Assembly (NCBI GenBank): GCA_947501685.1 | Contig: CANMWQ010000006.1 | Span: 62,001-126,000 of the forward strand | Reading direction: 5' to 3' | From: an uncultured Litoreibacter sp. | GTDB lineage: Bacteria > Pseudomonadota > Alphaproteobacteria > Rhodobacterales > Rhodobacteraceae | DNA: 64,000 nt | In this document: positions 23,204-34,635 of the stretch, in pieces | Layout of the letters: every line of letters begins with the position of its first letter | Position numbering within the stretch: position 1 is the stretch's first letter | The notes under the pieces: model-generated | The model's input: only the letters and a program-made list of their open reading frames with translations | Database searches by the model: none | What the model was told of the DNA's origin: nothing | Position numbers and translations under genes: made by a program

Positions 23204-24013
23204 ATGGATTTAACGACAATTAACACGCGCGGGCTGGTGTTGCTGGGCTGCGGCAAGATGGGCTCCGCGCTGCTGGAAGGCTGGCTGGCGCAGGGCGTTG
23301 ATGCTGCCGCTGTCTATGTGATTGACCCCAAACCCTCGGACTGGCTGCTGGCGCAGGGGGTGCATGTGAACGCCGTGCTGCCGGACGCGCCTGCTTTGGT
23401 GTTGATTGCGGTCAAGCCGCAAATGATGGGCGACGCGCTGCCAGCGCTTCAGGGGTTCGGCGATGACACTGTATATCTCTCCATCGCGGCGGGCACGCCG
23501 ATTGCGGCCTTTGAGGCCGCGTTCGGACCGTCCGCACGGATCATACGGTCCATGCCCAACACCCCGGCAGCGATTGGCATGGGCATCACCGCGATTGTTG
23601 GCAATGCTCTGACCCGTGACAGCGATATGGATTTGGCGGAGGCCTTGCTGCGGGCCGTGGGCGAGGTTGTACGGCTGAATGATGAAGAAGATATTGACGC
23701 GGTGACCGGAGTGTCCGGCTCGGGGCCTGCTTACGTGTTTCACCTGATCGAAACCATGGCCGCAGCGGGGCAGGCGCAGGGCCTGTCGGCTGAGCTGGCG
23801 ATGAAACTGGCCAAGGCCACCGTGGCGGGTGCGGGCCAGTTGGCGATGCAGGCGGAGGACAGCCCGTCGCAATTGCGCGTCAACGTGACCAGCCCGAACG
23901 GCACCACGCAGGCCGCGTTGGAGGTGTTGATGGATGAAGACCGGGGCTTCCCGAAGCTGGTGGGCGAGGCCGTCGCCGCCGCGACAAACCGAGGCCGGGA
24001 ACTGCGCGGATGA
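23204..24013 (+). CDS. proC: Pyrroline-5-carboxylate reductase
   Basis: A 269-aa NAD(P)H-dependent enzyme making proline from pyrroline-5-carboxylate. The dinucleotide fold is LLGCGKMGSALLEGWL near the N-terminus; then LIAVKPQMM, RSMPNTPAAIGMGITA, and the signature VTGVSGSGPAYVFHLIE with the catalytic loop, and SPNGTTQAALEVL. The ATG at 23204 has GGGGA five bases upstream; an ATG at 23198 is equally in frame. Its stop overlaps csaA as ATGA. The proC - csaA - dehydrogenase genes are one coupled run. Confidence 0.95.
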   Translation: MDLTTINTRGLVLLGCGKMGSALLEGWLAQGVDAAAVYVIDPKPSDWLLAQGVHVNAVLPDAPALVLIAVKPQMMGDALPALQGFGDDTVYLSIAAGTPIAAFEAAFGPSARIIRSMPNTPAAIGMGITAIVGNALTRDSDMDLAEALLRAVGEVVRLNDEEDIDAVTGVSGSGPAYVFHLIETMAAAGQAQGLSAELAMKLAKATVAGAGQLAMQAEDSPSQLRVNVTSPNGTTQAALEVLMDEDRGFPKLVGEAVAAATNRGRELRG

Positions 24014-24342
24014 TCAGTTTTGACGATTTCATGAAGGTGGATATTCGCGTGGGCCAGATCACCCGCGCCGAGGCGTTTCCGGAGGCCCGCAAACCCGCGA
24101 TCAAGCTCTGGGTCGATTTCGGGAAAGAGCTGGGCGAGAAGAAAAGCTCCGCCCAGATCACCCGGCATTACACGCCTGAGGAGCTGCCCGGCAAACGGGT
24201 GATGGCGGTGGTGAATTTCCCGCCCCGCCAGATCGGGCCAGTGATGTCGGAGGTCTTGGTTTTGGGCGTGCCGGACGAAGACGGCGAGGTCGTGCTGCTG
24301 GTCCCCGACAAGGACGTGCCCATGGGTGGAAGACTGTATTGA
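24010..24342 (+). CDS. csaA: CsaA-like tRNA-binding domain protein
   Basis: A 110-aa stand-alone tRNA-binding (OB-fold) domain: FMKVDIRVGQITRAEAFPEA, then KLWVDFGKELGEKKSSAQIT, MAVVNFPPRQIGPVMSEVLVLG. This matches CsaA of Bacillus, a dimer with chaperone and tRNA-binding activity, and the C-terminal domain of methionyl-tRNA synthetases. The start overlaps the proC stop (ATGA), and the stop overlaps the next ATG by one base (TGATG). A clear function in alphaproteobacteria is not established. Confidence 0.9.
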   Translation: MISFDDFMKVDIRVGQITRAEAFPEARKPAIKLWVDFGKELGEKKSSAQITRHYTPEELPGKRVMAVVNFPPRQIGPVMSEVLVLGVPDEDGEVVLLVPDKDVPMGGRLY

Positions 24343-25292
24343 TGAAGACGCTGCTGATTTCCAAACGCCTGCCTGACAGCGTTTTGGCCGAGGCGCGAGA
24401 GCGCTACGACGTGACCCTGCGCGAGACGGAGGCGTCTATGAGTGCTGAAGAGGTCTCTGACGCGCTGGGGTCCTATGACGCGATCCTGCCGACGCTGGGG
24501 GATGATGTATCCGAGGCGGCGATCAGAGGCTGCGCGGATCTGCGCTGCGGGATCATCGCCAATTTCGGGGTCGGCTTTAACCATATCGACGTGGCGGCGG
24601 CGCAGGCGCGGGGGCTGGTGGTCAGCAACACGCCCGGCGCTGTCACCGATGCCACGGCGGATATCGCGATCACGCTGATGCTGATGACCGCGCGCCGCGC
24701 GGGCGAGGGGGAGCGGCTGGTACGCTCCGGCGGCTGGGGCGGCTGGCAGCCGACGCAAATGCTGGGGCTGCATATCAGCGGGAAAACCGTTGGGATCATA
24801 GGGATGGGCCGGATCGGGCAGGCCATCGCGCAGCGGTGTCATGGCGGATTTGGCTGCAGAATTGTCTTTGCGAACCGGTCCGAGAAGTCGGTGCCGCATG
24901 CCACGCAGCTGGGCTCAATGGCGGAGGTGGCGCAGGCCGCCGATATCGTGTTCGTGGCCACGCCGGGCGGCCCTGAGACGCGGCACTTGGTTGATGCCAA
25001 TGTGCTGGGGGCCATGCAGCCGCACGCCATTCTGGTTAACATTTCACGCGGCGATGTGGTGGATGAGACGGCGCTGATTGCAGCCTTGAAGGCCGGGCAA
25101 TTGGCAGGTGCCGGGCTAGACGTCTACGAGCATGAGCCGGTGGTGCCTGAGGCTTTGAGGGCGATGGAGAACGTCACGCTGCTGCCGCATCTGGGCACCA
25201 ATGCTTTGGAGGTCCGGGAGGATATGGGCCGCATGGCCTTGGCCAATCTACATGCGTATTTTGACGGAAAGACGGTGCCGAACCCGGTTTAG
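24342..25292 (+). CDS. D-2-hydroxyacid dehydrogenase (glyoxylate/hydroxypyruvate reductase type)
   Basis: A 316-aa NAD(P)-dependent D-isomer-specific dehydrogenase. The catalytic domain flanks a Rossmann domain with VGIIGMGRIGQAIA; substrate and catalytic residues are the Arg in NISRGDVVDE, a Glu in the DVYEHEP segment, and His in LLPHLGTN. Relatives reduce glyoxylate, hydroxypyruvate or other 2-keto acids. The ATG at 24342 overlaps the csaA stop by one base; a TTG three bases earlier is less likely. Exact substrate cannot be read from the sequence. Confidence 0.9.
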   Translation: MKTLLISKRLPDSVLAEARERYDVTLRETEASMSAEEVSDALGSYDAILPTLGDDVSEAAIRGCADLRCGIIANFGVGFNHIDVAAAQARGLVVSNTPGAVTDATADIAITLMLMTARRAGEGERLVRSGGWGGWQPTQMLGLHISGKTVGIIGMGRIGQAIAQRCHGGFGCRIVFANRSEKSVPHATQLGSMAEVAQAADIVFVATPGGPETRHLVDANVLGAMQPHAILVNISRGDVVDETALIAALKAGQLAGAGLDVYEHEPVVPEALRAMENVTLLPHLGTNALEVREDMGRMALANLHAYFDGKTVPNPV

Positions 25293-25312
25293 TTCTCAGT
25301 CTAGTTCGCGAT

Positions 25313-25891
25313 CTAGTTTCCTGTCGCTTCCCGCCAATGGCGTCTGCACAGCGACACGTAGGTTTCGTTGCCGCCCACTTGCACCTGCGCGCCGTCGGTC
25401 ACTGCCTCGCCGTCGGCCCCTTTACGGATCACCATCGTGGCCTTGCGCCCGCAATGGCAGATGGTGCGGACCTCGCGCATCTCGTCGGCCAGGGCCAGCA
25501 GGGTGGCGGAGCCGGGAAATAATTCTCCACGGAAGTCGACACGTAGGCCGTAGCACATGACCGGAACGCCCAGATCATCGACGGCGCGGGCAAGCTGCCA
25601 AACTTGTTCTTTGGACATCCATTGCGCCTCGTCGACCATGACGCAGGCGAGGGGGCCTTTGGCGATGCGGGCTTCGATGATCGCGAACAGATCGTCCTGC
25701 GTGCCGTAGGTGATGGCGGGTTTGGCAAAACCGATGCGGCTGCCGATTTGGCCGGTGCCCGCGCGGTCATCGAAATTGGCGGTGAGCAGCAAGCACTCCA
25801 TGCCCATTTCTTGATAATTATGCGCGGCTTGCAGCAGCAAGGTCGACTTGCCGGCGTTCATTGTGGAGTAGTGGAAATACAGCTTGGCCAT
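25313..25891 (-). CDS. tdk: Thymidine kinase
   Basis: A 192-aa type II thymidine kinase for the salvage of thymidine to dTMP. Marks: P-loop YSTMNAGKSTLLLQ near the N-terminus, Walker-B-like MVDEAQWM with the catalytic Glu, YGLRVDFRGELFPGS lasso-type segment, and zinc-binding cysteines (CHCGRKA and a C-terminal CRRHW). The ATG at 25891 is supported by the family N-terminus. It converges with the dehydrogenase gene ending at 25292 and is divergent from the small regulator-like gene at 26036. Confidence 0.95.
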   Translation of the reverse strand: MAKLYFHYSTMNAGKSTLLLQAAHNYQEMGMECLLLTANFDDRAGTGQIGSRIGFAKPAITYGTQDDLFAIIEARIAKGPLACVMVDEAQWMSKEQVWQLARAVDDLGVPVMCYGLRVDFRGELFPGSATLLALADEMREVRTICHCGRKATMVIRKGADGEAVTDGAQVQVGGNETYVSLCRRHWREATGN

Positions 25892-26035
25892 GGATCGCCG
25901 TCTAGCGTTCTTTGCGGTTCAGTTCAACGGGCGGTTGCCCGTACGTCAACCGGGTTCCGTCATGCCTTGGCAGGTGGATCGGAATAGTGCTATGAGCCTT
26001 TAAACTAATGATAATGATGCGATAAAGGGGAAAAA

Positions 26036-26494
26036 ATGTCGTCGCATTTCAAATATCTCAAGAAGCACACCGAGGCCCTCGTCAAAGACGTGGGCATTGA
26101 GGCTGCGTGCAAGCTGACGGGGCGCTCTAAGGCCACGTTGGGGCGCTATTACTCGGACAATCTTGAGCATACCGACCGCTATATGCCGATCGACGCCGTG
26201 GTTGCTTTGGAGGCGTCCGCAAGTTACCCCCACGTCACCACGGCGCTGGCCGAGGTGAACGGTAACACCTTGTCATCAAACGGAAATCGGCAGCGCAACA
26301 GCGAAAGCGTCAATTCGGATATCGTGGCGCTGGCGCAGCGGTTTGCGCTGTTGATGGGCGAATATAACCTGTCCATTGAGGACGGCGTGATCACCGCGAA
26401 CGAGGCCAAACGGATGCTGACGGAAACCCTCGCTTTGCAAAAGGTTCTGGTGGAGATGAAGCTGCATCTGGAAGAGGAATCCGGCCGCAGCTGA
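26036..26494 (+). CDS. Hypothetical protein with an N-terminal helix-turn-helix-like segment
   Basis: 152 aa, no family recognised with confidence. Residues 1-50 (SSHFKYLKKHTEALVKDVG, GRSKATLGRYYSDN, then MPIDAVVALEA) look like a phage-repressor-type helix-turn-helix: two helices and a turn around residues 24-40. The middle (75-90) is polar and Asn/Ser-rich; the C-terminal 60 residues are predicted helical with an amphipathic LALQKVLVEMKLHLEEE. This layout fits a small dimeric DNA-binding protein, perhaps of mobile-element origin. It lies at the edge of the accessory segment, with AAAGGGG before the ATG. Function is inferred from shape only. Confidence 0.7.
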   Translation: MSSHFKYLKKHTEALVKDVGIEAACKLTGRSKATLGRYYSDNLEHTDRYMPIDAVVALEASASYPHVTTALAEVNGNTLSSNGNRQRNSESVNSDIVALAQRFALLMGEYNLSIEDGVITANEAKRMLTETLALQKVLVEMKLHLEEESGRS

Positions 26495-26544
26495 CCCGGA
26501 TTTGGCGCGGCGTTAACCTTTCCCCGAAGCCGCCCAAGCCACAG

Positions 26545-26577
26545 ACACATCCCGTACACAACCTGTACACATCCCGT
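26545..26577. repeat. Two 11-bp direct repeats 22 bp apart upstream of the BrnA-like gene
   Basis: ACACATCCCGT occurs at 26545-26555 and again at 26567-26577, a period of exactly 22 bases, about two helical turns. The spacer also carries a second GTACAC pair. The site is about 95 bases upstream of the BrnA-like gene at 26671. Spacing on the same helix face is what one expects of an operator for a dimeric regulator; the binder could be the BrnA-like protein or the HTH protein at 26036. Seen: the repeats. Inferred: any regulatory use. Confidence 0.45.
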
Positions 26578-26670
26578 CGTGACAGCGTCCCGCAAACGGT
26601 GGGGTGACGGCTTGTTAACCTATTTGGCAGAGAACCCCCTGCGTTCCAGCAGCGAAAAGGGGGATATGTC

Positions 26671-27081
26671 ATGGAAGAGAAAACCGTCCGCGCCCGGATG
26701 ACGACGCCGCAAAGGCGGCATCACTACTTCCTGCTCGATCTGATGAAAGAGCTCAATTACGACCTGCATCACCAATTGCAGGCCGACCTGTTTGCGCTGC
26801 CTCAGGGCTGGCAGCAAATCGCGGACGCGCCACGGCGCGGGGTGAAGGAGCGGATGACGCTCAGGCTCGACAGTGACGTGGTGAAGTTTTTCCGCGGCAC
26901 GGGCCAAGGGTTTCAAAGCCGCATGAATGACGTGCTGCGCTGCTACATGCATGCGCGGCTGTCCAACTTGCTTCAGGACGGCGCGCGCTTCCGGGAGTAC
27001 GTCGATGATGAAGAGCACACGCGCCGGCCGCTGGTCGGGGACACGGAGAAGATGTGGACCAAGGCCTTCGCGCGGCGGTAA
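26671..27081 (+). CDS. BrnA-like antitoxin-type protein without a BrnT partner
   Basis: A 136-aa protein whose residues 57-100 match the BrnA antitoxin pattern: VKERMTLRLDSDVVKFFRG, then GFQSRMNDVLRCYMHARL, a ribbon-helix-helix-type DNA-binding and dimerisation segment. The first 55 residues (MTTPQRRHHYFLLDLMKEL) and the C-terminal 25 are not part of the family. No BrnT RNase-like gene is next to it: downstream is a gene fragment on the other strand, upstream an unrelated HTH protein. So it is a solitary regulator or the remnant of a toxin-antitoxin pair. Direct repeats upstream may be its operator. Confidence 0.75.
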   Translation: MEEKTVRARMTTPQRRHHYFLLDLMKELNYDLHHQLQADLFALPQGWQQIADAPRRGVKERMTLRLDSDVVKFFRGTGQGFQSRMNDVLRCYMHARLSNLLQDGARFREYVDDEEHTRRPLVGDTEKMWTKAFARR

Positions 27082-27114
27082 GACGACGCGGAGGGCTGAA
27101 ACAAGCGTTTTGCG

Positions 27115-27255
27115 CTACCTGCGGGGGATGGAATAGAGGATGTAGCCGTCTTTTCTGGCCACCTCCACAGCACCCGTCTCGGTGATGAAAACGCCGAGGT
27201 TTTCCGTGTCTTGCGGACAGCCGACAAGGTCGGCGGTGTTGAAGAGCAGGCGGTG
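27115..27255 (-). pseudogene. 3' remnant of a truncated protein-coding gene (C-terminal ~46 codons)
   Basis: Reading the minus strand from 27255 to the TAG at 27115 gives a clean, well-composed frame: HRLLFNTADLVGCPQDTEN, continuing GVFITETGAVEVARKDGYI and ending SIPRR. There is no start codon; an in-frame TAA lies at 27262-27264, inside the AT-rich sequence that precedes the methyltransferase. The composition is protein-like and GC-rich like the chromosome, while the DNA immediately upstream is AT-rich. This is best read as the tail of a gene whose front was lost or displaced when the methyltransferase segment arrived. The family is not recognised. Confidence 0.5.
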
Positions 27256-27362
27256 AGGAGTTTAGCTAGAAGTGATAGACTCCTTATTGCTATTCCTTTG
27301 CAATTATCTAAATATTAAGGTCATTGGAACAAACCGAAAACAGGTTTGGCTTGAGGATGGTT

Positions 27363-28511
27363 ATGCGGAAGCAGTTTGCAGAGTTTTTCGCTGGTGGTGG
27401 GATGGTAAGCAAAGCGCTTGGCTCTGACTGGGATTGCGTGTTCGCGAATGATTTTGATCCCAAGAAGACAGCTACTTACCGCGCAAACAATGCCCATTCT
27501 GACGTGTTGCTTGAGCGGGACATTGCGCTGGTGTGTGCTCAGGATGTCAGTGGCACGCCATCTTTGGTGTGGGGATCGTCGCCCTGCCAGGATTTATCTG
27601 TGGCTGGCAAGGGAGCGGGGCTGCGCGGTGGGCGATCTGGTACGTATTTCGAATTCTGGCGCGTGATTGACGAGCTCATTTGCGACAACCGTCAGCCCGA
27701 AATTGTGGCTGTGGAGAATGTAGTTGGTTCGCTAAAATCTAACTCTGGAAAAGATTTTGCGGAGATGTGTCGTGCATTTGAACGTAGAGGATATATTTTC
27801 GGAGCAATGATAATTGATGCAGTGCATTTTGTTCCGCAATCAAGACCAAGGCTTTTCATTGTAGGTGTGCGGAAACAGAACTCTAGCATTGGACGGTTGG
27901 TCGGAGACCAATCCAGAGTATGGCTTGGCGGTAAACGCATTGAAGATGCTTTTAAGAGTCTTCCAGAAACGCTGAAACAAAGCTGGGTTTGGTGGGATTT
28001 GCCCGCGTTCCAAGGCAAACCGCAGCCGATTTTCGAAATAGTTCAGAGTAACCCTTCAGACGTTCGTTGGCACACGAAGGACGAAACGCAAAGACTGATT
28101 TCGATGATGAGCGAAGTTAACCTTCGGAAACTTGTTGAAGCGGCAGCGTCCGGTCGCCGCGAAATTGGATTTGTGTACAAGCGCACACGGCTAGATGACA
28201 AAGGGCGAAAAGTTCAGCGTGCAGAAGTTCGGTTTGATGGCGTTTCCGGATGCCTTCGCACCCCCGGTGGAGGTTCAAGCCGTCAGTTGCTTGTTGAGGT
28301 GCAAGGCTCAGCCACTCGATCTCGGCTGTTAGGCGTCCGCGAGGCAGCGCGATTGATGGGGCTAGAAGATAGCTACAAGTTGCCGAACTCTTATAACGAA
28401 GGGTATCATATTATGGGGGACGGTGTTGCGGTACCGGTCGTGCGGTATCTGAACGACAATCTGTTTTCCAACCTACTTGCAGACCAGACATTGCTGGTGG
28501 CAGCGGAGTAG
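27363..28511 (+). CDS. DNA (cytosine-5-)-methyltransferase
   Basis: A 382-aa C5-cytosine methyltransferase. Motifs in order: I FAGGGMVSKAL (residues 9-19), the SAM-binding acidic segment NDFDPKKTATY, IV SSPCQDLSVAG with the catalytic Cys75, VI VENVVGS, VIII QSRPRLFIVG, then a target-recognition region and the C-terminal motif IX/X block (REAARLMGL, GDGVAVPVV). The ATG at 27363 has GAGG six bases upstream; TTG and ATG starts upstream at 27324 and 27357 are possible. It is AT-richer than its neighbours, a sign of horizontal gain. Its stop (TAG) overlaps the GTG of a GIY-YIG nuclease gene, the layout of a restriction-modification pair. Recognition site unknown. Confidence 0.92.
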   Translation: MRKQFAEFFAGGGMVSKALGSDWDCVFANDFDPKKTATYRANNAHSDVLLERDIALVCAQDVSGTPSLVWGSSPCQDLSVAGKGAGLRGGRSGTYFEFWRVIDELICDNRQPEIVAVENVVGSLKSNSGKDFAEMCRAFERRGYIFGAMIIDAVHFVPQSRPRLFIVGVRKQNSSIGRLVGDQSRVWLGGKRIEDAFKSLPETLKQSWVWWDLPAFQGKPQPIFEIVQSNPSDVRWHTKDETQRLISMMSEVNLRKLVEAAASGRREIGFVYKRTRLDDKGRKVQRAEVRFDGVSGCLRTPGGGSSRQLLVEVQGSATRSRLLGVREAARLMGLEDSYKLPNSYNEGYHIMGDGVAVPVVRYLNDNLFSNLLADQTLLVAAE

Positions 28512-29071
28512 TGGGTACTGATTTTGACTTTCGGCGCAAAGCGGTCGGAACCTTAACCAGAGAGATTGGCGTCTACGTTCTTGCTGACCTGGACAACGTA
28601 CCACTATATGTGGGCCAGTCCCGCGACTGAATTCGTCAACGAGTTCAGCGACATCTGACCTCAGCACGCTCTGATATTATAGCGAACCGCCAGATTGATA
28701 TATGGGAAGTTGCCTATGTATGGGCGTTCCCTTGTCCAGATAAAGAACAGCTGGGTTTGCTCGAGGCCGGACTATTCCATACCTATGACAACCAATCGCA
28801 GCTTATGAACGGGAAGATACCGCCTTTGCCGGAAGCCAACTTCACATTGCCCTACCCTGCCCAGCAAGTTCAGGTGATGAGTGAAAGAGAGTTGGCCGAC
28901 AAGCTATCGCCGGAACAACGCCTGCCTAGACAGGCGGACCACTATGCGGCGATCGTTGGACATTTCTTGGCGATCAAGAATTCTTCGGAAGTCTCGCGGG
29001 CAATGGACGCTCATTTTGACCGGCTTCAGTTATACCACAGTCAGATGCTGAAACTGGCTACAAAAGACTAA
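28511..29071 (+). pseudogene. GIY-YIG nuclease (probable restriction endonuclease partner), interrupted by one in-frame TGA
   Basis: The frame starts with GTG at 28511-28513, overlapping the methyltransferase TAG, and runs 186 codons to TAA. It opens VGTDFDFRRKAVGTLTREIG and shows GVY (20-22), PLYVGQS (31-37), then a TGA at codon 40 (28628-28630) exactly where relatives have Gly in the SxDGI turn; the frame then resumes IRQRVQRHLTSARSDIIAN with the catalytic Arg and continues to a Glu at codon 85 (LLEAGL) and Asn-rich NQSQL. One G-to-T change (GGA to TGA) explains the stop. Downstream sequence is intact, so decay is recent. A truncated product would lack the catalytic core. Sequencing error is the other explanation. 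Confidence 0.8.
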
Positions 29072-32000
29072 CCCTGCAACGCCATAACCCCGACATCCCC
29101 CTCAACCCTTGCCTGCATCGCCATAGCCGCGGCCTGTGTGCCTGCAGCCGTCGTGTAGTAGGGGATTTTGTCGTAGAGGGCGATGGAGCGGATGTCTCGG
29201 CTGTCCTCAACCGCTTGCGCGCCTTCGGTGGTGTTGAAGACCAGTGAGATGAGCCCGTCTTTGAGCTGATCGACCACGGAGGGGCGGCCCTCGTAGACCT
29301 TGTTCACCGTCTCGACGTCCAGACCGGCGTCCGTCAGCCATGCGGCGGTGCCGCGGGTGGCGAGGAGCTTGTGGCCCAGCGCGTGAACCGTTTGCACGGC
29401 TTGCAGCATGGCGGGGGTTTTGTCCTCGTTGCGGATGGAGATGAAGACCTTGCCGGTCCCGTTTTGCGGCAGCTCGGTGCCCGCGCCCATTTGCGCCTTG
29501 AGGAAGGCTCCGGCGAAGGTGGGGTCGGAGCCCATGACCTCTCCGGTGGAGCGCATTTCGGGGCCGAGGATGGTGTCGACGCCGGGGAAGCGGGCGAAGG
29601 GGAGCACGGCTTCTTTGACGGCGAAGCTGTCGATCATCGGGTCGACGAGGTCGAAGTCTTTCAGCTTTTCGCCAGCCATGACGCGGGCGGCGATGGCGGC
29701 GATGGGGGAGCCGACGGCCTTGGCGACGAAAGGCACGGTGCGCGAGGCGCGGGGGTTGACCTCGATCAGGAAGATCTCGCCTGATTTGATGGCGTATTGC
29801 ACGTTCATCAGGCCGACGACGTGGAGGGCCTTTGCCAGCGCCTCCGTCTGGCGGCGGATTTCCTGGATGATTTCGTCGGAGAGGGAGTAGGGCGGCAGGG
29901 AGCAGGCGCTGTCGCCGGAATGCACGCCCGCCTCCTCGATATGTTGCATGATGCCGGAGACGTGGACTTGCGTGCCGTCGCAGAGCGCGTCGACGTCAAG
30001 CTCCACAGCACCTGAGAGGTAGCTGTCGAGAAGCACGGGACTGTCGCCGGAGACGACCACGGCTTCCGAGATGTAGCGCTCTAACTGGGCCTGATCGCGG
30101 ACGATTTCCATGGCGCGGCCGCCCAAGACGTAGGAGGGGCGGATGACCAGTGGGAAGCCGATTTCTGTCGCTTTCTCAAGGGCTTCGGCGTCGGAATGGG
30201 CCAGCGCGTTATGGGGTTGCTTGAGGCCCAGAGATTGCACCAGCTGCTGGAACCGCTCGCGGTCCTCGGCCAGATCAATCGCGTCCGGGGTGGTGCCGAG
30301 GATGGGAATACCCTCGTCCTGCAGCGCTTGCGCAATTTTCAGCGGGGTCTGGCCGCCGAATTGGACGATAGCGCCGTGCAGCTCGCCTTTTTCCTGCTCG
30401 ACGCGGAGGACTTCCATGACGTGCTCGAAGGTGAGCGGCTCGAAATAGAGGCGGTCGGAGGTGTCATAGTCGGTCGACACGGTTTCGGGGTTGCAGTTGA
30501 TCATGATGGTCTCGTAGCCCGCCTTCGTCAGGGCATAGCAGGCGTGGACGCAGCAATAGTCGAACTCGATCCCCTGGCCGATGCGGTTGGGGCCGCCGCC
30601 GAGGATGACGACTTTTTTGGCGTCAGACGGCCGGGCCTCGCACTCGACCTCCCCCATCATCGGGGCCTCGTAGGTGGAATACATGTAGGGGGTCTGCGCC
30701 TCGAACTCGGCGGCGCAGGTGTCGATGCGTTTGAAGCAGGCGACCACGCCAAGGTTCAGGCGCGCCTTGCGGACGTCTTGCTCGTTGCGGCCCGTCAGCT
30801 TGGCCAGCCTTGCGTCGCTGAAGCCCATCATTTTCAGTTTGCGCAGGCCTTCTTCAGACATCGGCAGCCCGTCTTTGGCGACTTGAGCTTCGGCGGCGAT
30901 GATCTCGCGGATGCGGGCGAGGAACCACGGATCAAAACGGGTGATCTCGTTGATCTCGTCATTGGAGAAGCCAAAGCGCATGGCGTGGGCGATGACACGC
31001 AGGCGGTCTGGCGTGGGCTTGGCCAGCTCGCGGGTCAGGGTCTTGTCGATGGCGTCCTGCGCGGTGGCGGTTTTGCCGACCACGATGCGCGGGATGATGT
31101 CACTTTCCGTGGTCTGCCATTGGACGGCATCGGTGCCGGGCATGCCGTCGATCTCGATCTCGTCAAAGCCGGTCAGGCCGGTTTCCATAGAGGCGAGGGC
31201 CTTTTGCATCGACTCGTGGATGGTGCGGCCGATGGACATGGCCTCGCCCACGGATTTCATGGCCGTTGTCAGATAGGGCTCGGCGCCGGGGAATTTTTCG
31301 AAGGCGAAGCGCGGGATTTTGGTGACGACATAGTCAATCGTCGGTTCGAAAGAGGCGGGCGTGACCTTGGTGATGTCATTGTCTAGCTCGTCCAGCGTAT
31401 AGCCCACGGCCAGCTTTGCTGCGATCTTGGCGATGGGGAAACCGGTGGCTTTTGAGGCAAGCGCGGAGGAGCGGGAGACACGCGGGTTCATCTCGATCAC
31501 GACCATGCGCCCGTCAGCGGGGTTCACGGCCCATTGCACGTTGGAGCCGCCGGTCTCCACCCCGATTTCGCGCAGCACGGCGATGGAGTGGTTGCGCATG
31601 ATCTGGTATTCTTTATCGGTCAGCGTCAGGGCCGGGGCCACGGTGATGCTGTCGCCAGTATGCACGCCCATCGGGTCCACGTTTTCGATGGAGCAGACGA
31701 TGATCGCGTTATCTGCATGGTCGCGCACGACCTCCATTTCATATTCTTTCCAGCCCAGAAGTGACTGATCCACAAGGATTTGACCCACGGGGGAGGCGTC
31801 GAGGCCGGAATGGCAGATCGCCTCGTAATCGTCGCGGTTATAGGCCACGCCGCCGCCCGTGCCGCCCATGGTGAAGGCGGGGCGGATGATGGCGGGCAGG
31901 CCCACCTCTTCCAGCGCGTCGATGGCGATTTGCACGCCGGCTTTGACGTCATATTTGCCCTGCGCGTTCTTTGGCGCTGTGACGATGGTGGCTTTGGGGT

Positions 32001-32427
32001 TCTCAATGCCCAATCGGTCCATAGCCTCGCGGAAGAGTTTGCGGTCCTCGGCCATCTCGATGGCTTCACGGGTGGCACCGATCATCTCGACATTGTATTT
32101 TTCGAGGACGCCCATTTCTTCCAGCGCCAGAGATGTGTTCAGCCCGGTCTGGCCGCCCATCGTGGGCAGTAGCGCGTCGGGGCGTTCTTTTTCGATAATT
32201 TTGGCGACAATTTCAGGCGTGATCGGCTCGATATAGGTGGCGTCGGCCATCTCCGGGTCGGTCATGATCGTGGCGGGGTTGGAGTTGACCAAAATGACCC
32301 GGTAGCCCTCTTCGCGGAGCGCCTTGCAGGCTTGCGCGCCGGAGTAGTCAAATTCGCAGGCCTGGCCAATGATAATAGGACCCGCGCCGATGATCATGAT
32401 GGAATTGATATCGGTTCTTTTTGGCAT
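29068..32427 (-). CDS. carB: Carbamoyl-phosphate synthase large subunit
   Basis: A 1119-aa enzyme that makes carbamoyl phosphate for arginine and pyrimidine synthesis, using ammonia delivered by CarA. Two homologous halves each have a preATP-grasp and ATP-grasp domain (first: [21 protein letters not shown] and [10 protein letters not shown]; second: [20 protein letters not shown] and [14 protein letters not shown]), joined by an oligomerisation domain, and a C-terminal allosteric MGS-like domain ([13 protein letters not shown]). The ATG at 32427 is the family start (MPKRTDI). Its stop overlaps that of the broken nuclease gene tail to tail, so the accessory segment abuts it directly. carA is not in the window. 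Confidence 0.97.
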
Positions 32428-32546
32428 GATCCACGTCCCCAAGATTGTGCAAACCCATGTCGCGGCAGCAGCGCCGCGTCCCACAAATTATCGTGGGTTT
32501 AAGGAGTCGCCGGGGGGGGTGCAAGGCCCGAAGGGATTGGAACGGA

Positions 32547-33821
32547 TTAAAGCTCTGCGGATCGCCTGTTGAGCCTGTACGCGGCGGCCATCAGGCAGAC
32601 AAACAAAGCCACCAAAACGGCGACGTTCCACTGCACGGTGTAGAACTCTGCCTGGCCGAGCTGCTTGAGTGTTTCCTGCACAGGTGAGCTCCACGCGAGT
32701 GCGAAGGCTATGAACAACACAATTGCGACCGTCTGGGAAAAGAGGGTCGCGAGGCCGGGCAACAACAATATCAGCGGCAAGAAATAATGCCCCCAGCTGA
32801 GCGGACCGGTAAGATAGATCACGATAAAGAGGAGCGGCACCCAGACCCGGTAGCGGTCAGTGTCATCCAGCTTATGCCCGACCCACCATGCCCAAGCCAT
32901 GCCGATGAGCATGATGGCCAATGCCACCGGTTTGATCCAGCCGGCCTTTTGATAAACGATGGCCTCTTCATGGGCGAAGAGCATCTGCATCTGATCTGTG
33001 GCGAAAAACCAGCCGAGCAACGATTGCAGCGAGAAGTTGATATGCATCATCGGCAATACCGATTGCACCTGCGCGAGGCGCTCGAAAAATGCGGTATGCA
33101 GCTCGGTCGGAACCAAAAGCCAGCTGATCAGACCGAAGGCCGCCAGCCCGCATACCATTGCGCCCAAGGCGCGCCATTGCCGCTGTGCGACGAAGAGCAC
33201 CACAAACAAGACCGGAGTCACCTTCAGCGCGGCGGCCAGAGCCAATATCAACCCGGCTGACACCGGCGCGCCGTAGCGCAACCGCTCGATGCTAAAGAGC
33301 ACAAGAAACGAGACGAAGATCTGCGGCTGGTTGTGATAGAGCGACAGAATGCCGATGGTTGAGTTGGACAAAATCAGCACGCAAAGCAGCGCCCAAAGGG
33401 CGGCAGGGATTTTTGTGGGTGCCATGATCCGGCGCGCCAGAAAGATCGACGCACCAAGCGCCGCGATATGCGCCACGAAGACCAGTTTGAAAAAGACAAA
33501 GGGCGGCAGCGCCTTGGCGAAGGGCGCCAACACCATCACCCAGAGCGGGGGGTAGAGATAGGGCAGGATATCGGCCTCGGGATGACCAAGCTCGCCGGCC
33601 AGCGCGCGCCAGCTTTCCGCCTCAAGGTCCGAAAAGAAATGCACCGGGGCCGCATAGACCTCGGCCAGCTGCCCGTCGGCGTAAAACCAGGCGGCAAAGT
33701 AGAAGGCCGACAGGTCGGGGGGCCAGATGGGGGTAAAGCTGATAAAGGCGATATAGGCCGCGAAGCCGATCACCAACAGGGCGAAGACCAAGTCGAGTTG
33801 TCTCACACGTGTGCTTTGCAT
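32547..33821 (-). CDS. GT87-type (DUF2029) polyprenol-linked glycosyltransferase, membrane protein
   Basis: A 424-aa polytopic protein with about 11 membrane segments. The first periplasmic loop carries SAFYFAAWFYADGQLAEVYA, with the paired acidic and Tyr residues typical of GT-C enzymes, followed by LPYLYPPLWVMVLAP, a GT87 hallmark. Characterised relatives are alpha-mannosyltransferases (PimE type) that use polyprenol-phosphate donors. A second, related protein lies at 34605-35834. Substrate here is unknown; surface glycan or glycolipid decoration is plausible. It is divergent from the CPBP gene. Confidence 0.8.
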   Translation of the reverse strand: MQSTRVRQLDLVFALLVIGFAAYIAFISFTPIWPPDLSAFYFAAWFYADGQLAEVYAAPVHFFSDLEAESWRALAGELGHPEADILPYLYPPLWVMVLAPFAKALPPFVFFKLVFVAHIAALGASIFLARRIMAPTKIPAALWALLCVLILSNSTIGILSLYHNQPQIFVSFLVLFSIERLRYGAPVSAGLILALAAALKVTPVLFVVLFVAQRQWRALGAMVCGLAAFGLISWLLVPTELHTAFFERLAQVQSVLPMMHINFSLQSLLGWFFATDQMQMLFAHEEAIVYQKAGWIKPVALAIMLIGMAWAWWVGHKLDDTDRYRVWVPLLFIVIYLTGPLSWGHYFLPLILLLPGLATLFSQTVAIVLFIAFALAWSSPVQETLKQLGQAEFYTVQWNVAVLVALFVCLMAAAYRLNRRSAEL

Positions 33822-33969
33822 AGGAATTCAGTCTCTTAGGGCGCGCCGTTTGGACCTTGCGGCGACTTGCTCAGGCGCTATGTCTCAAGGTTCGTGCTGG
33901 GCGTTTTTGGTGCAATGCGCCATGCAAGGGCCCGCCTGTCAACGCGCAAGCCCGCGCAGCCGGAGAAAT

Positions 33970-34635
33970 GTGCCCACCGTGACCCGCCGGACTCAGCTGT
34001 TTTTGGAATGGGCGCTTTTCTTCGTGGCGCTGCCCGTGGGTATCGCCGTGGTGCTGCCGCCTGCGATGATGTTCCCGGCGCTGTTCACGCTGACGGGGGT
34101 GGGGCTGGTGCTGTTGTACCTGACGAAAGGCTTCCGCTGGGGCTCGCTCTGGCAAGGGATGGGGCGCATCTCATGGCCGCTGATTGGCGGGGTTGCTTTG
34201 GGGACTTTTGTGATCAGCTACGTTGTGCTGGCGCTGTGGCACCCGGAGCGCTTGTTTCAGCTTTTGGGCGAGGGCGCGCCGCGCACCGCGACGGGCTGGC
34301 CGATCATCTGGATCATTGCGCTGTTTTATCCGCTGGTCTCGGCGCTGCCGCAGGAGCTGGTGTTCCGCCCGCTGTTTTTCCGTAGGTATGGCGCGCTGTT
34401 TCCGCGCTGGGGGCTGTGGGTAAACGCCGCCGTATTTTCATTGGCACATCTGATGTATTGGAGCTGGGTCGTGGCCGCGATGACCTTTGTGGGCGGGCTG
34501 CTTTTCGCGTGGTCCTATGAGCGGCGCGGCAATTTTCCGGAGGCCGTGCTGGCCCATAGCGTCGCGGGCGTGGTGCTGTTTGCGGTTGGGATGGGGACGT
34601 ATTTCTACTCCGGCAACGTGGTGCGGCCGTTCTGA
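33970..34635 (+). CDS. CPBP family intramembrane metalloprotease-like protein
   Basis: A 221-aa protein with seven or eight membrane segments. The CPBP (Rce1-like) motifs read PQELVFRPLFF (first Glu of the usual EExxxR is Gln), FSLAH (second motif) and LAHSVAG with the third histidine. Q in the first motif occurs in a known subgroup, so activity is uncertain but not excluded. The GTG at 33970 is chosen for the GGAG four bases upstream; another GTG at 33979 is possible and longer frames have no ribosome-binding site. The end overlaps the second GT87 gene by 31 bases, tail to tail. Confidence 0.8.
   Translation: MPTVTRRTQLFLEWALFFVALPVGIAVVLPPAMMFPALFTLTGVGLVLLYLTKGFRWGSLWQGMGRISWPLIGGVALGTFVISYVVLALWHPERLFQLLGEGAPRTATGWPIIWIIALFYPLVSALPQELVFRPLFFRRYGALFPRWGLWVNAAVFSLAHLMYWSWVVAAMTFVGGLLFAWSYERRGNFPEAVLAHSVAGVVLFAVGMGTYFYSGNVVRPF

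Follow-up and report, generated by a model that had tools for sequence, protein, structure and literature searches.

Does a nuclease gene carrying a single stop codon beside an open methyltransferase gene record a restriction-modification system that has just lost its endonuclease? The locus that raises this question lies in a 64,000-nucleotide stretch of an uncultured Litoreibacter sp. genome (hereafter the window; features in the table). We consider it probable that the two genes form a type II restriction-modification cassette, likely specific for GGCGCC, whose endonuclease gene was recently inactivated. The evidence consists of the stop, the intact methyltransferase frame, homology that continues across the stop, the pairing of the two genes in relatives and catalytic residues on both sides of the stop. 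From it we infer that the nuclease is the cognate restriction enzyme, that the site is GGCGCC, that activity has been lost while methylation continues, and that the event is recent. In the proposed mechanism, a C5-cytosine methyltransferase and a GIY-YIG endonuclease would form a two-gene cassette joined by a one-base overlap; the former would probably protect GGCGCC, and the latter would probably cut unprotected GGCGCC on incoming DNA. The TGA at codon 40 would end translation between the second catalytic tyrosine and the catalytic arginine, an inert 39-residue peptide would be expected from the stopped gene, and the methyltransferase would be left working alone. Loss of the methyltransferase before the nuclease would be lethal.

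Table. Features of the locus in window coordinates.
Feature	Coordinates	Strand	Remarks
CII-like regulator gene, left anchor	26036..26494	+	Weak matches to Pfam Phage_CP76 and NCBIfam YmfL, both below cut-off
BrnA-like antitoxin gene beside the cassette	26671..27081	+	Pfam BrnA_antitoxin, 56.1 bits (cut-off 26.1)
Cassette of methyltransferase and broken nuclease	27237..29068	.	Congener alignment breaks; lower GC
C5-cytosine DNA methyltransferase, intact frame	27324..28511	+	ORF from TTG 27324; likelier starts ATG 27357 or 27363
GIY-YIG gene, 5' piece	28511..28630	+	39 codons and TGA; Y22 28574-28576, Y33 28607-28609
Premature stop TGA, codon 40	28628..28630	+	Internal stop in 0 of 96 relative rows
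GIY-YIG frame, 3' piece	28631..29071	+	146 codons and TAA; R44 28640-28642, H48 28652-28654, E85 28763-28765, N100 28808-28810
Presumed carB, large subunit of carbamoyl-phosphate synthase, right anchor	29068..32484	-	1138-aa ORF; convergent with the nuclease gene

The methyltransferase matches Pfam DNA_methylase (E 6.4e-40, 138 bits), TIGR00675 dcm (143.7 bits, over cut-off) and PADLOC PDLC00028 (456 bits). Its sequence contains PCQ, ENV and QSRPR, which we take to be conserved motifs of C5-cytosine methyltransferases. Druantia type II is suggested by nothing more than a name (DruM2) on PADLOC methylase profiles; a PADLOC search of the genes at 26036-27081 and of the nuclease frame gave no Druantia effector match. 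The window methyltransferase deviates at 2 of the 86 columns that are at least 95% conserved, and the mean number of such changes is 0.95 in copies paired with a GIY-YIG gene and 3.3 in solitary copies. Over 27363-28508 it forms the longest end branch among 61 relatives, with conserved columns mostly kept, and the tree does not place it firmly. On relaxed constraint these two sequence measures pull in opposite directions: the long branch would speak for it, the few changed columns against it. Within the genus, a homologue (E up to 1e-10) occurs in 3 of 21 genomes, that of the window included.

The methyltransferase stop codon TAG (28509-28511) shares one base with the GTG start codon of the nuclease frame (28511-28513), as the first-pass annotation had described. 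Its account of a TGA at codon 40, followed by 146 codons that include the catalytic Arg and Glu, was confirmed from the sequence, and so was its assignment of the joined frame to the GIY-YIG nucleases. With X placed at the stop, the full frame reaches 27.4 bits with Pfam GIY-YIG, above the cut-off of 22.6, and two intact relatives score 27.1 and 32.0 bits; taken separately, the 39- and 146-residue pieces have no Pfam hit at E values up to 1. The domain is thus spread over an interrupted gene, which makes it a broken member of the superfamily. The frame closes with TAA at 29069-29071, where the convergent carB gene ends. Alignments with close relatives run through the stop at 46-68% identity, so the open frame that follows it is not due to chance. 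Y22, Y33, R44, H48, E85 and N100 are invariant in 57 relatives. Because the stop falls between Y33 and R44, with Y22 and Y33 on one side and R44, H48, E85 and N100 on the other, neither piece can hold a complete active site. Matched by eye, the six residues correspond to Y49, Y76, R104, H108, E142 and N154, the active site of R.Eco29kI according to excerpts of PMC1952068, and the R-x3-H spacing is common to both proteins.

The annotation had placed the stop at a conserved glycine codon, which is correct for the close subfamily only. The column holds Gly in 82 of 83 close rows (the exception, L084, is partial, lies at a contig edge and has Ser), but the eight distant rows carry Lys (6), Gln (1) and Ser (1). 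Glycine is therefore a subfamily trait, and the GIY-YIG fold does not demand it at this position. The absence of internal stops from the relative rows, among which a few genomes are counted twice, extends over the matched part only in distant relatives, whose GIY-YIG matches are partial; the '*' in L096 is a normal gene end. Apart from the stop, we saw no second lesion in the comparison of invariant columns. The window departs from the relatives' invariant residue at one column of 39, with I in place of V, and at least one such column is changed in 9 of 70 relatives. This comparison kept 78 of the 83 close rows, or 70 after removal of near-copies, and five rows were dropped for too many gaps or an early '*'. 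With one invariant column changed, there is no sign of progressive decay of the frame, and the view of a system in ongoing decay beyond a single change was not borne out.

A frame with no other damage suggests either that the event is recent or that the stop is a sequence error. In the latter case the organism would have an unbroken gene, and the two genes would make up a normal, functioning restriction-modification system. We regard this as unlikely. Such an error would leave a sole lesion in a frame otherwise conserved as in relatives, exactly as seen here, and the stop is known from one assembly, a 16-contig draft genome; yet neighbouring long frames, such as that of 1138 residues, are open, and single-base errors are rare in good contigs. 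The claim that the nuclease was freshly silenced beside an intact methyltransferase therefore stands on the stop and the lack of any further lesion, and is qualified by its dependence on that single assembly. Translation through the stop is a different matter. TGA is a leaky stop in bacteria and every catalytic residue after it persists, so that low-level readthrough would produce traces of full-length nuclease and attenuated restriction. The stop occurs in no relative row, however, and so is not a conserved device, nor is there an Rfam match at gathering score near it; we consider readthrough highly improbable. An in-frame TGA inside an otherwise conserved gene could finally code for selenocysteine. 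The genome has neither selB above cut-off nor tRNA-Sec above gathering score (best 45.2 versus 47, just below), in searches that gave hits in 14 of 14 control genomes, most of them below cut-off, and no relative row has Cys at the stop column. Selenocysteine was rejected on the missing SelB and tRNA-Sec, its probability being negligible.

How does the inactivated cassette compare with known systems? R.Eco29kI is likewise a GIY-YIG nuclease paired with a cytosine methyltransferase (PMC10855626, in excerpt). It and its relatives cut CCGCGG, whereas the window nuclease, of about 186 residues, has GGCGCC as its predicted site. Membership in the R.Eco29kI sequence family was rejected, as no Eco29kI chain appeared among PDB sequence hits up to E 10. 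No characterised GIY-YIG restriction enzyme gave a sequence match, the best PDB hit being UvrC (E 0.0042), and our literature search found no characterised member of the window's widespread GIY-YIG family. The second comparison is with KasI, whose site is GGCGCC. The KasI methyltransferase belongs to the same family as that of the window, and the site is probably common to both. The KasI-like endonuclease, at about 285 residues and with no Pfam domain recognised in it, is a different protein, and no match to it was found near the window pair (window 24000-34000).

Both nuclease types are present in gp32-gp35 of Burkholderia phage AH2, a module of methyltransferase, KasI-like nuclease, GIY-YIG protein and Vsr. 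Its methyltransferase is 50% and its GIY-YIG protein 57% identical to those of the window (66% for a Kozakia plasmid and 64% for a Sphingomonas plasmid GIY-YIG homologue), and the AH2 GIY-YIG gene is intact, unlike that of the window. Excerpts of the AH2 paper give gp34 64% identity to KasI, the source of our name KasI-like, and call it the restriction enzyme (PMC3483164). The GIY-YIG protein gp33 (L016 4001-4576), a member of the window's family, is annotated there as an excinuclease. This labelling favours a reading in which the GIY-YIG protein is an accessory nuclease, for example in repair, and the methyltransferase was already solitary or lost another partner. It gains from the loci in which both nucleases stand side by side, where the KasI-like protein could be the restriction enzyme. 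We nevertheless judge it improbable, given how rarely the two nucleases coincide and where GGCGCC is avoided, as set out below.

From a GTDB contig scan with 111 loci we retained the best 80, at 49-68% identity. A methyltransferase homologue accompanies the GIY-YIG gene in 78 of these 80 loci; the distance is within 1 kb in 77 and 2.6 kb in L065, and in the remaining two (L083, L084) the match lies at a contig end. A KasI-like gene stands beside the pair in 9 loci. No KasI-like match was found in the fetched stretch of the other 71, some of which reach contig ends, which counts against an accessory role of the GIY-YIG protein. The Loktanella salsilacus pair (L101) is one that lacks a KasI-like match in its vicinity. 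Distant-type GIY-YIG plasmid loci (H3, H5, H7-H13) were left out of the locus comparisons. Among 394 genomes of the organism's family, 11 including the window have a GIY-YIG relative (E up to 1e-8), with a stop in the window only, and 24 have the methyltransferase (E up to 1e-60). The partner is a GIY-YIG gene in 10 of these 24 (window included) and a KasI-like gene without GIY-YIG in 7; 7 have neither. Of the 17 partnered genomes, G426 alone has both nucleases, its KasI-like match being distant, and this too argues against the accessory reading. In the seven solitary genomes, none of GIY-YIG, KasI-like nuclease and Vsr was matched at E up to 1e-4 within the fetched 14-15 kb. Seven plasmids pair the methyltransferase with a KasI-like gene and gave no GIY-YIG match over the stretch fetched; they are 7 of 18 records and were picked since an earlier comparison had found them free of GIY-YIG matches. 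A quick tree of 102 methyltransferases requires a minimum of 9 changes of partner state, compared with a shuffled mean of 28.9, and well-supported branches alone force fewer than 9. Partners thus cluster on the methyltransferase tree, yet have probably changed more than once. Solitary cytosine methyltransferases are the expected functional state of the window, except that the solitary genomes have no nuclease gene nearby and the window still keeps a broken, nearly whole one.

If the nuclease restricts at GGCGCC, its carriers might avoid this sequence. GGCGCC was chosen because the methyltransferase family includes M.KasI relatives. Palindromes were counted against a maximal-order Markov expectation, and non-carriers were defined as genomes without this restriction system, whatever other systems they hold. 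Strong avoidance in GIY-YIG carriers was already suggested by a small-sample first count. In five close-type carriers pooled, the observed/expected ratio is 0.19 (52 found, 269.8 expected), rank 1 of 59 palindromes, and differs from that in 26 non-carrier genomes with a one-sided Mann-Whitney p of 2.4e-5; the genomes compared are phylogenetically non-independent, so that this and the following p-values are a rough guide. By genome, the close-type ratios range from 0.13 to 0.31, with rank 1 in G026 and G099 and rank 2 in G413 and G353; in G098 GGCGCC is just 11th of 54, several palindromes being lower. Four distant-type carriers pooled give 0.18 (8 of 45.4; rank 1 of 43), including G426, whose expected count is too low for a rank of its own, and 25 further Rhodobacterales loci also give 0.18 (rank 1 of 54). 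The ratio is 0.41 in seven KasI-type genomes (p 0.037; rank 4 of 54), and pooled values are 0.51 in 13 congeners and 0.69 in 13 other family genomes. CCGCGG is unremarkable in carriers (0.50-0.60 over pools).

Seven solitary-methyltransferase genomes reach 0.83, above non-carriers (two-sided p 0.0016). Since GGCGCC is not avoided in genomes that have the methyltransferase alone, its removal elsewhere would seem due to cutting rather than to methylation, with the proviso that these solitary genomes are GC-rich, so that the contrast may partly reflect lineage, and that their methyltransferases are diverged and may differ in site. Avoidance that is strongest where GIY-YIG is the only partner found, and absent with a solitary methyltransferase, also speaks against a merely accessory GIY-YIG protein. 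As a universal signal GGCGCC avoidance was ruled out: 48 loci outside Rhodobacterales, pooled, show no special avoidance (0.65, rank 19 of 62). Some groups among them are low, picked afterwards, such as the Rhizobiaceae loci L032, L037, L039, L040 and L045 (2 found versus 22.9 expected). The count of further loci used 73 of the 80; L082, L089 and L101 were left out because their genomes had already been counted, and four fell below 3 kb after masking. For the non-carriers, 13 of 20 family stretches were used; the seven others were shorter than 15 kb, and one of them, L265 (G061), went to the solitary group. Among congeners, G005, G008, G010, G011, G013 and G019 were left out, and G015 was placed in the distant-type group. 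In G015, the distant GIY-YIG type and methyltransferase (L024) lie on another contig than carB, and GGCGCC is strongly avoided, at 0.21 (4 found, 18.7 expected).

The window genome itself (464 kb) has a GGCGCC ratio of 0.41, rank 10 of 58, and two of the 13 congeners are lower. The restriction role that the first-pass annotation had assigned to the nuclease is thus backed by avoidance in Rhodobacterales carriers, but the window genome lies no lower than the genus background. A ratio like that of congeners leaves no trace of long restriction at GGCGCC and fits recent arrival of the system, early loss of the nuclease, or both. According to excerpts of PMC4687349, genomes avoid the sites of type II systems that have been resident for long but not those of recent ones. 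The ratio being higher than in any of the five intact close-type genomes also weighs against a sequence error at the stop, although a recently arrived working system would look alike. The most avoided palindrome in the 464 kb sampled is CCCGGG (0.20), a possible sign of a further restriction system that is present now or was so earlier.

The predicted site has an outside point of comparison in Rhizobium RCAM1026, where GGCGCC was found methylated by nanopore sequencing (PMC8709438, in excerpt). On its plasmid pRL11, a KasI-like gene adjoins that of a methyltransferase homologous to the window's (50%), and presumably these are the genes in the table of PMC8709438. The excerpt names the modified base 4mC, whereas 5mC would be expected of the window's methyltransferase class. 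In the partial texts that our literature search covered, we found no link between GGCGCC and a GIY-YIG nuclease.

Congener G018 aligns with the window up to 27236 and resumes from 29069, and the alignments stop at 27236 in G017 and already at 26963 in G006. This break and resumption mark the pair as an insert or replacement of about 1.8 kb. Its GC content is about 0.48-0.56, versus about 0.61-0.67 in most flanking windows. The gene to the right, which we named carB from our own reading of the sequence rather than by a family search, has its C-terminal part in all 21 genomes of the genus. Of 17 congener stretches, 16 have the CII-like gene at a distance of 0.8-2.8 kb from carB, the interval being occupied by other genes; the 10 kb fetched from G020 gave no match to it. 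BrnA-like homologues stand at the corresponding place in 5 of the 17 stretches, and in G011 a thymidine-kinase-like gene that flanks the spot directly follows carB. The cargo of this spot (26495-29067; congener loci L136-L152) varies. Defence-like matches occur in about 7 of 16 stretches, in a scan of 20 proteins with Pfam and 10 with PADLOC that included no control spot. They comprise a Thoeris-type TIR protein (ThsB), a deaminase with a strong PADLOC dCTPase match, two ImmA/IrrE-type proteins, a RES-domain protein, an HNH effector-like protein and a DUF4062 protein; the remaining cargo has weak matches, domains of unknown function or nothing. We suggest the spot between the CII-like gene and carB as a candidate defence hotspot of the genus.

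Taken with the partner comparison, these observations make a broader account somewhat more plausible than its negation. One GGCGCC methyltransferase family would be served by two unrelated, interchangeable restriction enzymes, GIY-YIG and KasI-like, that are gained, swapped and lost while the methyltransferase stays, and the window would show the step from complete system to solitary methyltransferase, one mutation old, in a defence-collecting spot beside carB. The broken gene is an ordinary kind of event, and the GIY-YIG family behind it is more interesting: this nuclease group, for which a site is predicted, and an unrelated nuclease seem to substitute for one another. If the broader account is true, the GIY-YIG restriction enzymes would include a family whose site is neither CCGCGG nor TCNGA. 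For this widespread family GGCGCC is a prediction that can be checked, and the phage AH2 copy, labelled an excinuclease, gains an alternative interpretation. Opinions differ on whether solitary methyltransferases originate from complete systems that decayed. A pan-genome survey states, in excerpt, that they rarely arise in this way (PMC4176335), and corrupted restriction-modification genes are said in excerpts of PMC4687349 to be numerous in REBASE. A one-lesion case with before and after states both present in relatives is a clean test object for such an origin.

Several related loci carry irregular nuclease genes of their own. In G201 (L182 7528-8323; an 80% complete genome), matches to the KasI-like gene next to an intact methyltransferase fall in three frames; another nuclease may have broken there while its methyltransferase stayed whole, or the draft sequence may contain errors. 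On a Kozakia baliensis plasmid (L014 2093-2948), the KasI-like gene lies in two frames and the GIY-YIG gene is intact. A Novosphingobium locus (L047 8865-9239) holds a Vsr homologue with an internal stop, and the adjoining KasI-like gene is matched in two pieces. In a Devosia MAG (L033 10053-10996), another GIY-YIG gene, of the distant type, lies a few kb from the close-type system, together with Vsr-like pieces of which one contains a stop. Downstream of the KasI-like system on pRL11 (L312), near record position 132416, there is a short distant-type GIY-YIG match that covers 30% of the query; the stretch around it is incompletely annotated. Three solitary methyltransferases (L187, L188, L189) come from three genera yet form one clade and have a common aminotransferase-like neighbour, which suggests a long-kept solitary copy.
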